Of a DNA stretch of 39,863 nt, positions 24,042-29,778 are shown piece by piece. Numbering within the stretch: the stretch's first letter is position 1; the number at the start of each line of letters is the position of its first letter. The DNA is from Methanobacteriota archaeon (lineage in GTDB: Archaea > Thermoplasmatota > Poseidoniia > Poseidoniales > Thalassarchaeaceae). Under the pieces are notes generated by a model. It worked only from the letters and a program-made list of their open reading frames with translations, was not told the DNA's origin and searched no databases. The stretch covers positions 1-39,863 of the forward strand of contig PBSO01000037.1 in the NCBI GenBank assembly GCA_002726275.1, written 5' to 3'. The position numbers and the translations under genes are program-made.

Positions 24042-25559
24042 ATGACAGACGCGTTGGAACTCCTGAACTCGATTCGCAAAAGGACTGGCAAGTCCCTAAC
24101 TCCCGGGCTTCCCGATGAAGTCATTCGGATGTTTTCAGAATCTGACCCCTCTCTTTCCAGGGCGATTGAAGAATCATTAGTCAATTTCGACATTCTCTCT
24201 TCCGATCAAGGAACTTCAATGTTTGATATGGATGAGGATGATATGGTCAGGGAGGTCCAGTCTGATTTCGTCAATTTCTACGCACCAGAAACAGTAAACC
24301 CGTATGTAGCAATAGCTGCAAGAGGTCCATGGATTGTCACTTCCCATGGGGCCGTCTTGCACGATAACGGGGGATATGGTATGCTTGGTATGGGGCACGG
24401 CCCTGATGACGTGATTAATGCGATGCAGCAGAACTGGGTAATGGCCAACGTGATGACTCCCTCATTTAGTCAGAAAAGACTGGCGAATATGATCAGGGCG
24501 GAAGTAGGGCAATCTAGAGGGAACTGCCCTTTTGACAAGTTCATTTGCCTGAATAGCGGCTCTGAATCAGTGGCCATCTCAATGAGAATCGCCGACTTAA
24601 ATTCGAAAATCGAAACTGGGCCAGGTGGCTCTCATGAGGGGAAGCCCACGAAATTACTGGCACTTGAGCAGGCATTCCATGGCAGAACACAGCGCCCCGC
24701 TCAAATTTCAGACTCATGCAGGGACAAGTATGAGGAGCATTTGGCAACTTTCCGTGACAAAGAGGGCGTTATGTTTGTTCCTTCAAATGATGTCGATTCA
24801 CTAAGGGACGCCTTTGCAAAGGCCGAGAGTGAGGGATTCTTCATTGAAATGATGGCTATGGAGCCGGTGATGGGAGAAGGCAACCCAGGGCAATGTGTTA
24901 CAAGAGAGTTCTATGATGAGGCACGCCGTCTAACCAAGGAGCATGGAAGCTTCCTACTAGTCGACTCAATACAAGCAGGATTTCGCGGTCAGGGCTGCCT
25001 AAGCATAGTCGACTACGAAGGCTTCGAGGATTGCGAGGCACCTGATATGGAGACATGGTCAAAGGCACTGAGCGCAGGCCAGTACCCTCTCTCAGTAGTT
25101 GGACTTAGTGAGAGGGCGGCCCAGACGTACGTCGTCGGTGTCTATGGCAATACTATGACAACGAATCCACGGGCACTAGAGACCGCAATCGCAGTTCTGG
25201 GCAGGATCACCCCAGAACTCAGGGACAACATACGCGAACGCGGTTCGGAGTTCAAGAGAAAACTGACAGGGCTAATGGAGGAGTATCCAGGCAGGGTTAT
25301 CGATGTCCAGGGAACCGGATTGCTACTTTGTGCGGAACTAGATCCAGACACACTCCCAGTCATTGGATTCGGTAGTGTTGAGGAATGGTGCCGAAGAAAC
25401 GGCCTCGGGGTAATTCACGGAGGTTCAAACGCCCTGAGATTCACCCCTCACTTCGCCATAACCTCCGAGGAGATAGACATGATAGTAGACATCATCAGGC
25501 AGGCACTGGAACACTTCTCGTCGGCTGAAAAGGAAAACAAGGCGAAATCCCTAGCATGA
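24042..25559 (+). CDS. Class III PLP-dependent aminotransferase
   Basis: LNSGSESVAISMRIAD, EQAFHGRT, LLVDSIQAGFRGQG (PLP Asp), TWSKALSAGQYPLS (PLP Lys). Substrate not assignable. Confidence 0.88.
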   Translation: MTDALELLNSIRKRTGKSLTPGLPDEVIRMFSESDPSLSRAIEESLVNFDILSSDQGTSMFDMDEDDMVREVQSDFVNFYAPETVNPYVAIAARGPWIVTSHGAVLHDNGGYGMLGMGHGPDDVINAMQQNWVMANVMTPSFSQKRLANMIRAEVGQSRGNCPFDKFICLNSGSESVAISMRIADLNSKIETGPGGSHEGKPTKLLALEQAFHGRTQRPAQISDSCRDKYEEHLATFRDKEGVMFVPSNDVDSLRDAFAKAESEGFFIEMMAMEPVMGEGNPGQCVTREFYDEARRLTKEHGSFLLVDSIQAGFRGQGCLSIVDYEGFEDCEAPDMETWSKALSAGQYPLSVVGLSERAAQTYVVGVYGNTMTTNPRALETAIAVLGRITPELRDNIRERGSEFKRKLTGLMEEYPGRVIDVQGTGLLLCAELDPDTLPVIGFGSVEEWCRRNGLGVIHGGSNALRFTPHFAITSEEIDMIVDIIRQALEHFSSAEKENKAKSLA

Positions 25560-26248
25560 GTGATCGGATGGGAAAGAAAGTCCACATCGTTGGAGAAAGG
25601 GACGTATTTTTTGATGCGATATCTGACAGACTAAACAGGGCGGGAGCCATAATCACAGATGACAGGCAAAATGCTGATGTCGTCGTCTCCTTGGGCAAAG
25701 GGTCTAGCGGTGACATAGTTGTGGTCCCTGGGGATATGGAGACTGGAGATGCCAGCCTCATTGTAAGGATCCACGACTTGCTGATCCCCGAGTCTCCCAA
25801 TGAATGGGGCCCAAGGGACATCCATGAGTGGTCGTACAGCATTATGGAAGGCGCAAACAAAAACGAGGCCTCCGATTTCCAAGCTAGGCATTGGCTGCAT
25901 GTAAGGGATGCCACTGATGCACTCTCATTACTGATAATGGCTGACTCGGATGTAATGCCTAGTGGCATACTGAATATGTCTGGGAGGCGTGCATGGGGGC
26001 CTCAAGAGGTTCTAGAGGAGATGACTCTACTTTGGTCTAGATTCACCAATACTCTGAATCACTCGCACACACCAGAGTCACTTTCCGCGATCCCAAGTCC
26101 AGTTCCGGAATCCTCCAGGGGATCAGTCAGCAGACCCGATCTAGGATCACTTCACGAAGCTCTGAGGGAACTAGGAACAGATGGATGGCATCCGCTAGTC
26201 CCTATGCGAGTTGCACTGATGGAGGTCTTCGCTCACGCGGAGAACTGA
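25556..26248 (+). CDS. Divergent extended-SDR/epimerase-like protein apparently lacking the catalytic core
   Basis: LHVRDATDALSLLI…GILNMSGRRAWGPQEVLEEM…RPDLGSLHEALRELGTDGWHPLVPM resembles the C-terminal half of NDP-sugar epimerases; ATGA overlap with upstream gene. Confidence 0.55.
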   Translation: MSDRMGKKVHIVGERDVFFDAISDRLNRAGAIITDDRQNADVVVSLGKGSSGDIVVVPGDMETGDASLIVRIHDLLIPESPNEWGPRDIHEWSYSIMEGANKNEASDFQARHWLHVRDATDALSLLIMADSDVMPSGILNMSGRRAWGPQEVLEEMTLLWSRFTNTLNHSHTPESLSAIPSPVPESSRGSVSRPDLGSLHEALRELGTDGWHPLVPMRVALMEVFAHAEN

Positions 26249-26249
26249 T

Positions 26250-26426
26250 TCAGTTCTTGTCGTTCTGGACCTTCACTCTGATGGCCTGAGCCATTCCCTT
26301 GGCGGACTGCATAGCCTTGCGGACTCGGGTACCAGCTGCCTTGTTCCCCTTGTCGTGCTTGACTGCGTCACCCACGGCGTCTTCTAGCATCTCAATCATA
26401 TCATGCATCATCTTCTCGACGGACAT
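26250..26426 (-). CDS. Histone H1-like (Hc1-type) small basic protein, 58 aa
   Basis: MSVEKMMHDMIEMLEDAVGDAVKHDKGNKAAGTRVRKAMQSAKGMAQAIRVKVQNDKN; the KGNKAAGTRVRKAMQ…QAIR.KVQ pattern is characteristic of Hc1. Confidence 0.75.
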   Translation of the reverse strand: MSVEKMMHDMIEMLEDAVGDAVKHDKGNKAAGTRVRKAMQSAKGMAQAIRVKVQNDKN

Positions 26427-26489
26427 AACGCAGGCCCGGTGCAAGAACGCTCTTAGCCGTTTTCACGAACCAAGTCGTGATAATCCCCA

Positions 26490-27473
26490 CTATTGAGAGA
26501 ACAAATCAGCGCCGAGAACCGGCAAAATAACGCTAGCATCGCCCTCTACGACCACTTGAGGCGCCTCTGGACGGACTTTTCCCCAAGAAACGGCCTCCCG
26601 TAGACGAGCACCAGATAGAGAACCATCGTATTCGGGAGCAGTAGTGATTGAAACAGCCGAATCCAATCCGCCTCTGTATTGATTCCACCAAATGACGTGA
26701 TGCTTGGAAATCCCTCCCCCTACCATTAGCGCGTGACTCTCATCTGCCGTCCAAGTCAAGTCAGAGAGGATTTGCTCATCTGCCATAAGATCAACAAAGA
26801 ATTTGGGATTCTTCTGCCGGTGCATGAATAGTTGCGCTCCTATTGATCCATCGGTAATTCCGGGAATGACCATGGGAATACGGTGTTTTGCAACCCAGTG
26901 AAGCAAGGACGACTCATCTTCGATCCTGTCTCCCAGAGCCCAACACAGCTCAACCGAACCAAACCCAAGCCACGGATTATCTGGGATCGCCTCTTTCCGT
27001 TCGATTTCTATTTCATCTAGCCAAGGCAGAACCACGTTCTCCAAAATCTCCCCATAGCACTCATTCGGGACAATCACGTTGCCAAGTCTGTTGAGTCCCT
27101 CTTCACCCAAGGCGATATCATCCAAACTGAAATCCCCGTGGAAGTATTCTCGGTAGGTCCTGGCAATGTCATGATCGAGAGTTCCACATGTGGTAACTAC
27201 GACATTGAAAGACTGCCTCTTCAGCCCCTCTAGGAAGAACCCCCTAGTTCCCGTAGCACAAAGACATGCAGGAAAAGAGAGCCAGTTCAGAACGCCCTGC
27301 TCGCCGACGCTTTCCATCGATTCACGTAATATGTCTCTTGCAGAAGCAAGCTTTGTTGCTGTGAAACCGCCAGCTCTAGACATTTGGTCGATTAGTGACC
27401 CAACACTGTCAACAGACTCGAAGTCATAGTCCTCGACTGGCACGTCGAAGTCGTCTCGCGAGTATCCGGCCAC
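26490..27473 (-). CDS. dys: Deoxyhypusine synthase
   Basis: TTCGTLDHDIART, GGGISKHHVIWWNQYRGGLDSAVSITTAPEYDGSLSGARLREAVSWGK containing the active-site Lys. Confidence 0.96.
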   Translation of the reverse strand: MAGYSRDDFDVPVEDYDFESVDSVGSLIDQMSRAGGFTATKLASARDILRESMESVGEQGVLNWLSFPACLCATGTRGFFLEGLKRQSFNVVVTTCGTLDHDIARTYREYFHGDFSLDDIALGEEGLNRLGNVIVPNECYGEILENVVLPWLDEIEIERKEAIPDNPWLGFGSVELCWALGDRIEDESSLLHWVAKHRIPMVIPGITDGSIGAQLFMHRQKNPKFFVDLMADEQILSDLTWTADESHALMVGGGISKHHVIWWNQYRGGLDSAVSITTAPEYDGSLSGARLREAVSWGKVRPEAPQVVVEGDASVILPVLGADLFSQ

Positions 27474-27498: not shown

Positions 27499-29778
27499 TC
27501 AATTGGTCGCACTCTGCAGTTGTATTATCCGGTCTCGAATCGAGGCCGCTCTCTCGAAGTCCAGTCTTGCAGCTGCAGCCCGCATCTCCTTCTCCAGCTT
27601 CTCGACAATCCTCGATACGTCACCCCCATCCCCGATGTCAATATTTTCCGATGGAATCTCAGCCCATTCTGGCTGACTCACGTTGTCTAGAACTGAATCG
27701 GACGTATTCCACATGCCGGCACCCAGTGCGAACTTCTGGGCCAGCCCGTCTAGTCCCTTTTTCCCAGGGGCCTTCGCAACCAGCCTCCTGCCTCCGCCAC
27801 TGCCCTTTCCCGCTGCCCCAGCCAACAGGTCCCCAATCTCCTGGCCCATTACCGGTAACGGCTTCTGGATGGTTTTGGGAGTTATTCCGTGCTCCTCGTT
27901 ATGCTTCTTCTGCCTGGACCTCCTTGCAGTGGTCTGCTTCATCGCTGCCTCCATTGAGGGGGAAATTGAATCTGCGTACAGAATCACAATTCCGTTCTCA
28001 TTCCTCGAGGCCCTCCCTATTGTCTGCAGAAGAGACCTCTCGTTCCTAAGGAATCCCTGTTTGTCCGCGTCGAATATTGCAACGAGTGACACCTCTGGTA
28101 TGTCCAATCCCTCTCTCAGAAGATTGATCCCTACAATTACGTCGATGTGCCCAATCCTGAGGGCCTTGATGATCTCGGTCCTCTCAAGAGTGTCTATCTC
28201 AGAGTGCAGATAGTGTGCCTTGATGCCATTTCTTTCTAGGTAACCAGCCACTTCTTCTGCGAACTTGATAGTCATAACCGTGACAAGCACTCGCTCGTCT
28301 CTCTCCACTCTGGAATTTATCTCGGACATCAGATCCTGTACCTGTCCCTCTATCCCCTTCACTACAATCCTCGGATCAAGAAGTCCAGTAGGTCTGATTT
28401 CCATCTTTACGACCCCTTCAATCTCAGAGAGTGTCCCCTCTAGAGTCGAAGAACCCACCCTCTTTTCCAGCTCTGGAGTAGAAACTCCACCTCCTCCCTG
28501 GACATGAAGGAGTCCCTTGGGTACTTCTTGCTTGGTAACCTCAGCGAGATGTCGTAACTCCCTCTCCCCGGGAGTGGCGCTTACATACACCATCTGAGGG
28601 ACTATGGACTGGAACTCATCAATCCTCAGAGGTCTGTTGTCATATGCTGAAGGTAGCCTGAAACCATGGTCAATCAGATTCTTCTTCCTGGAGAAGTCTC
28701 CTCCGTGCATCCCGCCCACTTGTGGCAGAGTCACGTGGCTCTCATCCATTATCACCAGGTATCTATCGTCACCACCGTGAAATTTCTCTGCATTCGTGGA
28801 GAAGAAGTCCAATAGGCAGTACGCTCGTTCTCCCCTCTGGCGCCTGTCGAAATGCCTCGAGTAGTTCTCAACGCCCTTGCAAGAGCCAATCTCGGTTAGC
28901 ATTTCCAGATCAAATCTTGTCCGCCCCTCCAGTCTATGGGCCTCGATGTCCATGCCCTTTCCTTGGAACCAGTCAACCCTTCCATCCAACTCGTGCTCTA
29001 TGTCTTCAAGAGCCTCGTTGAAACTCTCCTCGCTAGTCATATAGAACTCTCTTGGATGTATCCAAGCCTCCTCGAAGTCATACAGTACCTCCCAAGAGAT
29101 GGCCTCACAAATCTGGATCTTCTCTATCCCCTCCCAGCCAAACCTCACTCTCATCGGGTCATCCCTGCTAGGCATCCAGATGTCCAGAACCTCTCCTCGA
29201 AGTCGAATGTCGCCACGAGTCATTCCACCGGTGGTTCTCTTGTACTGTAGGCCGACGAGTTCTCTGACTACATCTTGAGGGTCTATACTCTGTCCAACTT
29301 GCAGTCTGAGGTGGTTCTGCTCGAAAACTTCAGGGGGATTAAGTCCGTAGATGGATGAGACGGTGCCTATGGTAACCACGTCAGGCCTGGAAACCAAAGA
29401 GGCCACTGTGGAGAACCTCTCCTGCTCTATCCTCTCATTCATCTGCAACTCCTTGTCGATGTAAAGGTCCCTGCCAGGGATGTAAGCCTCGGGTTGGTAG
29501 TAGTCGTAGTAGCTAACGAAGTACTCAACGGCATTCTCTGGAAACAGCTCGCTCATTTCCTGCCACAGTTGCCTCGCTAGGGTCTTGTTGTGAGATAGAA
29601 TAAGCGTCGGCATTTGCAACTTCTCGATGATGTTCGCCATCGCGAATGTCTTGCCAGACCCAGTCACCCCCAGTAGTACGCACCTTTCTTGACCTCCCTC
29701 TATCTGTTCCACTAGGGAGTCAATCGCCTGTTGCTGATCACCGGCGGGTCCGTAGTCAGAGCGTAGAACGAACATCAC
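27499..29778 (-). CDS. uvrB: Excinuclease ABC subunit B
   Basis: GVTGSGKTF, YYDYYQPEAYIPGRDLYIDKELQMNERIEQER beta-hairpin, C-terminal UVR motif RLDFERAASIRDRI. Confidence 0.98.
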   Translation of the reverse strand: MMFVLRSDYGPAGDQQQAIDSLVEQIEGGQERCVLLGVTGSGKTFAMANIIEKLQMPTLILSHNKTLARQLWQEMSELFPENAVEYFVSYYDYYQPEAYIPGRDLYIDKELQMNERIEQERFSTVASLVSRPDVVTIGTVSSIYGLNPPEVFEQNHLRLQVGQSIDPQDVVRELVGLQYKRTTGGMTRGDIRLRGEVLDIWMPSRDDPMRVRFGWEGIEKIQICEAISWEVLYDFEEAWIHPREFYMTSEESFNEALEDIEHELDGRVDWFQGKGMDIEAHRLEGRTRFDLEMLTEIGSCKGVENYSRHFDRRQRGERAYCLLDFFSTNAEKFHGGDDRYLVIMDESHVTLPQVGGMHGGDFSRKKNLIDHGFRLPSAYDNRPLRIDEFQSIVPQMVYVSATPGERELRHLAEVTKQEVPKGLLHVQGGGGVSTPELEKRVGSSTLEGTLSEIEGVVKMEIRPTGLLDPRIVVKGIEGQVQDLMSEINSRVERDERVLVTVMTIKFAEEVAGYLERNGIKAHYLHSEIDTLERTEIIKALRIGHIDVIVGINLLREGLDIPEVSLVAIFDADKQGFLRNERSLLQTIGRASRNENGIVILYADSISPSMEAAMKQTTARRSRQKKHNEEHGITPKTIQKPLPVMGQEIGDLLAGAAGKGSGGGRRLVAKAPGKKGLDGLAQKFALGAGMWNTSDSVLDNVSQPEWAEIPSENIDIGDGGDVSRIVEKLEKEMRAAAARLDFERAASIRDRIIQLQSATN

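Follow-up and report, generated by a model that had tools for sequence, protein, structure and literature searches.

The window analysed here is a 39,863-nucleotide stretch of archaeal contig. On its minus strand, a 58-codon ORF runs from an ATG at 26426 to a stop at 26250 and encodes MSVEKMMHDMIEMLEDAVGDAVKHDKGNKAAGTRVRKAMQSAKGMAQAIRVKVQNDKN. The original prediction had its coordinates and residues right, with the strand missing. The next gene upstream, in the same direction and separated by a 63-nt gap, encodes deoxyhypusine synthase (26490–27473, minus strand; PF01916, E=1.1e-86), and beyond it lies uvrB (27499–29778, minus strand), recognized by its UvrB domains in Pfam; the small gene is indeed just downstream of both, as had been described. 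On its other side, a convergent 230-aa ORF (25556–26248, plus strand), which gave no Pfam match, ends 1 nt from the stop codon. All three neighbours are conserved. At least seven genera of the window's family have in common the order L7Ae, PRPP synthetase, aminotransferase, the convergent 230-aa ORF, the small gene, deoxyhypusine synthase, uvrB, ubiA and a ubiD-like gene, where the PRPP synthetase and ubiD names were assigned by reading the sequence.

The 58-aa product belongs firmly to the Hc1 domain family. A Pfam scan matched PF07432 (Hc1) with 59.5 bits (E=2.9e-16; curated cut-off 23.5 bits), aligning residues 8–58 to profile positions 5–56 of 57, and both the GN-[K/S]-AAGTRVRKxMQ core and the R50 typical of this family are present. 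One further match, to an unrelated family, fell below cut-off, and none was obtained to PF00808 (HMf histone), PF00216 (HU/HTa) or PF01918 (Alba). The NCBIfam HctA equivalog model (NF051889) scored 23.5 bits against a cut-off of 100 and aligned over residues 1–37 only. With Pfam Hc1 above its cut-off and HctA far below, the window protein represents the Hc1 domain and not a full HctA. Chlamydial HctA shares this N-terminal domain, with no net length change over the aligned residues, but carries a lysine-rich C-terminal DNA-binding half. The window protein stops at residue 58, right behind the domain, and has no such lysine-rich nucleic-acid-binding region. The likeness first drawn to Hc1 of Chlamydiae and Bacteroidetes thus holds for the domain family, but neither for the full chlamydial protein nor for the Bacteroidota form, from which it differs by a turn one residue shorter. 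Unlike Chlamydia, the archaeal host is not known to have a developmental cycle.

Hc1 is an old gene of the Poseidoniales, an abundant group of marine archaea, and no one-off oddity of the window genome. Homologues were detected in 25 of 30 related genomes, their frames intact except for fragments at contig ends, and those relatives that carry a name in the genome scan belong to Candidatus Thalassarchaeaceae / Poseidoniales, i.e. Marine Group II. Across the phylum, 51 of 243 sampled genomes contain Hc1, all 51 in the window's order; no Hc1 was found in the other members of class and phylum in this set. Poseidoniales-type organisms were likewise the only archaea among the matches listed in a scan of genome contigs. 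Within the order, all 29 genomes sampled from the window's family have the gene, as do 22 of 35 from the sister family, one of them a single-contig genome of 2.1 Mb. Since several sister-family genera lack it entirely, members of the order can do without it. Comparison of 26 copies gave a median dN/dS of 0.15 over 157 pairs, with pairwise differences mainly at third codon positions, which points to purifying selection. Divergent copies also exist: in L251 and L252 (genus g13) and L255 (genus g14), much of the nearly invariant GNKAAGTRVRK..Q..K core and stripe is altered. Alba, rare in this family, is retained in the g13 genomes. The original prediction was to be abandoned if no Hc1 HMM match or no conservation of the ORF in relatives was found; a significant match and a conserved frame were obtained.

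An Hc1 family that is otherwise bacterial and viral raises the question of a contaminating or mis-binned bacterial contig. We regard this as having a negligible chance of being correct, as independent assemblies from at least seven genera have L7Ae, deoxyhypusine synthase and uvrB around the gene, and the single-contig sister-family genome carries it too. The synteny refutes contamination and confirms the archaeal host, to which deoxyhypusine synthase and ribosomal protein L7Ae in the same block belong. In the remaining Poseidoniales groups, Hc1 is set among different neighbour genes. Conserved archaeal surroundings in one family combined with different ones elsewhere suggest a gene that moves as a single unit.

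The region upstream of the gene was consistent with independent transcription. A TATA-like element, AAAACGGCTAAGAGCGT, lies at 26447–26463 on the minus strand (-37 to -21 from the ATG), and its position is kept across Poseidoniales loci with differing neighbours. A TATA-like block was common to 31 upstream regions of less than 70% mutual identity; in a leave-one-out test over 200 nt, the top site fell between -37 and -35 relative to the start codon at 28 of the 31 loci. By the established spacing in archaeal promoters, a TATA box whose centre lies ~27 nt ahead of the ATG would place the transcript start on or close to the start codon, as in a leaderless mRNA. Hc1 is a single-copy gene and would be expressed from its own promoter as a leaderless, one-gene mRNA. 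Scans for sigma-70 promoters and terminators were uninformative for this archaeal locus, and no inverted repeats were found there. Archaeal nucleoid proteins are mostly encoded in single-gene operons, and the working criteria for recognizing them are small size, a single-gene unit, high abundance with enrichment in the nucleoid, and DNA binding of low specificity (PMC7613761). At 58 aa, with its own promoter and variable neighbours, window Hc1 has the expected size and, judged from its sequence, the expected gene organization.

AlphaFold2, supplied with 85 homologues, predicted a helical hairpin (helices 3–25 and 29–57) at a mean pLDDT of 97.9. The two helices differ in character, with a pI of 4.6 for the acidic helix 1 and of 11.75 for the basic helix 2; that of the entire protein is 9.5. 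Its net charge of ~+2.7, decreasing to ~+0.6 in other Poseidoniales copies, is low for a nucleoid protein and counts against such a role. Conservation is centred on helix 2. A31, R34, R36 and R50 are invariant in 85 diverse homologues, and D20, K23, G27, N28, G32, T33, Q40, K43, A46 and Q47 are conserved in at least 90%. The helix-2 registers R36/K43/R50 and T33/Q40/Q47, together with the packing register G32/M39/A46/V53, showed a mean entropy of 0.65–0.69 bits versus 1.6–1.9 for the remaining registers, and the first two of these form a straight polar stripe.

Chlamydial Hc1 condenses DNA; it dimerises through its N-terminus and binds DNA through its lysine-rich C-terminus (PMC2848022). As only the self-pairing half of that protein is present here, a role in DNA packing is no more than likely. 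The domain might instead act purely in dimerisation, binding no DNA itself and modulating a DNA- or RNA-binding partner such as MC1 or RNA polymerase. The division of labour in the chlamydial protein (PMC2848022) favours this option, as do the lack of the corresponding C-terminus, the modest charge and the co-occurrence of MC1 in almost all genomes, and contacts within the dimer or with other proteins, rather than with DNA, could account for the conserved helix-2 stripe. We nevertheless consider it unlikely. The most strongly conserved positions are R, K and Q residues along one face of helix 2, kept in archaea, bacteria and phages, whose partners presumably differ, and no conserved operon partner accompanies the gene, its neighbours varying between Poseidoniales groups. 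The presence of the dimerisation domain only, with a conserved stripe, leads us to propose a dimeric hairpin that contacts DNA via the stripe; DNA binding by the window protein is in this respect inferred.

The predicted fold also suggested a small RNA- or ribosome-associated protein. Several of the best Foldseek matches in the PDB were hairpins of ribosomal protein uL29 (TM ~0.7–0.8), and chlamydial Hc1 reportedly represses translation in vitro. This explanation seems highly improbable to us, given that two-helix hairpins are generic and that every PDB match was non-significant (best E=0.58); searching the PDB by sequence gave no credible match to any solved chain. In a library of viral structures, the two best matches were hairpins with TM 0.95–0.96, the top one at E=1.6e-3 and 51% identity.

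Outside the archaea, the Hc1 domain was found in 22 of 199 Planctomycetota genomes, in 68 of 118 sampled Bacteroidota genomes and in many phage contigs. Copies from Planctomycetota (Phycisphaerae; e.g. L122 and L123) resemble the window protein in being tail-less, ~58 aa long and short in the turn, with an GNKAAGTRVRKAMQ core, but are only ~35–46% identical to it and start ~3 residues later. The Bacteroidota proteins, named 'histone H1', have the core in common with it and are mostly tail-less, but their turn (KFYDKGN) is one residue longer in every copy examined and some bear K/A/P-rich tails. In one of these, L239, the Hc1 domain is followed by such a tail, which indicates that the domain is a module to which a basic tail may or may not be joined. 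All aligned Poseidoniales and Planctomycetota copies have the shorter turn, and phages show both lengths.

Tailed-phage proteins such as those of moraphages (PMC12619734) contain the same domain, and the short-loop copies L032, L055, L035 and L037 are the nearest neighbours outside the Poseidoniales. They sit in bacterial-phage surroundings; in the L055/L058 group, for instance, these include a GroEL-type chaperonin and a match to a PHROG DNA polymerase. The large phages L055/L058/L263-L270 combine Hc1 with thymidylate synthase, thymidine kinase, a DNA polymerase match and a GroEL-type chaperonin, and most of their short-loop Hc1 copies match the Poseidoniales protein in N-terminal length. Hc1-like stretches were also seen in Synechococcus phage S-SRM01 (MW015081.1 at 183658), annotated as 'histone H1', and in Prevotella Lak megaphages (MK250016.1 at 290359), without annotation.

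In a tree of 58 columns, from which the loop column was left out, the Poseidoniales copies were nearest to the short-loop phage proteins with weak support. AU tests rejected neither a clade of Poseidoniales plus Bacteroidota (p-AU 0.37), nor Planctomycetota or the short-loop group as sister (p-AU 0.48), nor the Poseidoniales copies as one clade (p-AU 0.46). Owing to this weak support and the lack of any rejection, the tree names no donor. Bacteroidota are disfavoured as donor by loop length, though compatible with the tree. The earlier suggestion of a transferred gene therefore stands in part: restriction to one order within the phylum fits acquisition, but the tree with bacterial homologues did not reveal the source.

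Relatives of Hc1 are encoded on at least 365 viral-contig stretches. Scanning with the Poseidoniales alignment identified five viral copies with 59–71% identity to a Poseidoniales copy: L258 and the near-identical L259 (129 kb), L260, L261 (45 kb) and L262 (74 kb), on contigs IMGVR_UViG_3300017746_000001, 3300017773_000740, 3300040813_000043, 3300030109_004745 and 3300020475_000546. The L258 contig encodes a thermosome-type group II chaperonin, PCNA and a stretch with an RNA-polymerase Rpb1 domain. The latter is an 839-aa protein (L338:9545-12061) whose match to Rpb1 domain 5 covers residues 69–109 only. Among the genes of the L262 contig are those for a portal protein, a prohead protease and a major capsid protein with 34% identity to its counterparts in haloarchaeal tailed viruses, and according to the ICTV the morphogenesis proteins of Poseidoniales viruses are related to the same haloarchaeal family. 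Taken together, the thermosome-type chaperonin, the PCNA and the Rpb1 stretch, the haloarchaeal-like capsid gene and the ICTV relation make it very probable that the hosts of these Hc1-bearing viruses are archaeal, and they are probably Poseidoniales. Poseidoniales-type Hc1 on archaeal-virus-like contigs is new here. By eye, a TATA-like hexamer lies ~28–30 nt before the viral start codons of L258-L262.

Four of the virus copies grouped with the host copies in the tree (96/79), one of them within the host group (95/80). This indicates a protein common to Poseidoniales and viruses, and the tree gives no direction of exchange. Hc1 may have been a viral gene, first used for condensing viral genomes or taking over the host, that was then domesticated or repeatedly exchanged between the two. 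The abundance of viral relatives, the four contigs with Poseidoniales-type copies in these positions and the short-loop phage proteins as next neighbours agree with such a history, which we regard as possible, if somewhat doubtful. Its direction is not inferable from 58 columns, which resolve little, and the host gene spans the order and keeps its synteny across several genera. A viral source concerns origin and not present function, and would be compatible with a nucleoid role of the host protein.

The other nucleoid proteins of these hosts were surveyed in 79 Poseidoniales genomes. HU was found in none of them and a clear histone in one (G239). This sole clear histone-fold match, L021 (G239:C15:11936-12180), consists of two adjacent pieces in different frames; Hc1 was not found in that genome. 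Alba was present in 33 of the 79, mainly in the sister family, with 4 of 41 in the window's family. MC1 was detected in 74, the window's genome included. With HU, histones and Alba missing from most genomes of the window's family, Hc1 had at first seemed the sole nucleoid protein of the host, a possibility ruled out by this distribution of MC1. Since HU is absent, histones are nearly so and MC1 is almost everywhere, Hc1 would join MC1 as a second nucleoid protein. MC1 is likewise small and basic, but belongs to an unrelated family of 96 profile positions that occurs in the same genomes. It was not found in the Hc1-bearing virus contigs. A survey of archaeal nucleoid proteins assigns MC1 to Marine Group II, where it was probably gained horizontally by the order, and does not mention Hc1 in its main text (PMC7613761). 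Our literature search found no paper reporting Hc1 in archaea.

We favour, with some confidence, the explanation that a tail-less Hc1 derived from a bacterium or virus has been kept by the Poseidoniales as a small, dimeric nucleoid protein that they share with viruses. A nucleoid role is likely from homology, charge, the single-gene promoter and conservation. An ancestor of the Poseidoniales would have acquired the gene, which would be transcribed alone from its archaeal promoter as a leaderless mRNA. The two amphipathic helices are predicted to fold into a hairpin, and hairpins would pair into dimers, as the corresponding domain of chlamydial Hc1 is known to do. The basic and glutamine-rich stripe of helix 2 (R34, R36, Q40, K43, Q47 and R50) would then touch DNA without sequence specificity, allowing dimers to bridge or coat DNA alongside MC1. 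The same protein is found in viruses that probably infect these archaea, where its likely use is on viral DNA or on the chromatin of the host. A bolder extension is a chromatin component common to Poseidoniales and tailed viruses. These archaea would package their DNA with a bacterial/viral hairpin dimer plus MC1 and, across most of the window's family, without Alba, histones or HU, and viral Hc1 would dress or protect viral DNA or take over host chromatin. We put this forward as speculation that is rather unlikely to hold in full.

The Hc1 domain family thus occurs in an unexpected lineage, and its order-wide retention and virus copies add to its interest. The candidate is retained by almost all sampled genomes in one family and occurs on archaeal-looking virus contigs. 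If the proposed role is correct, the Poseidoniales would allow one to ask cleanly whether an Hc1 domain that lacks the lysine tail is enough to organise DNA. An overlooked second nucleoid-protein candidate of bacterial/viral type would alter the picture of how the Poseidoniales chromosome is packed.
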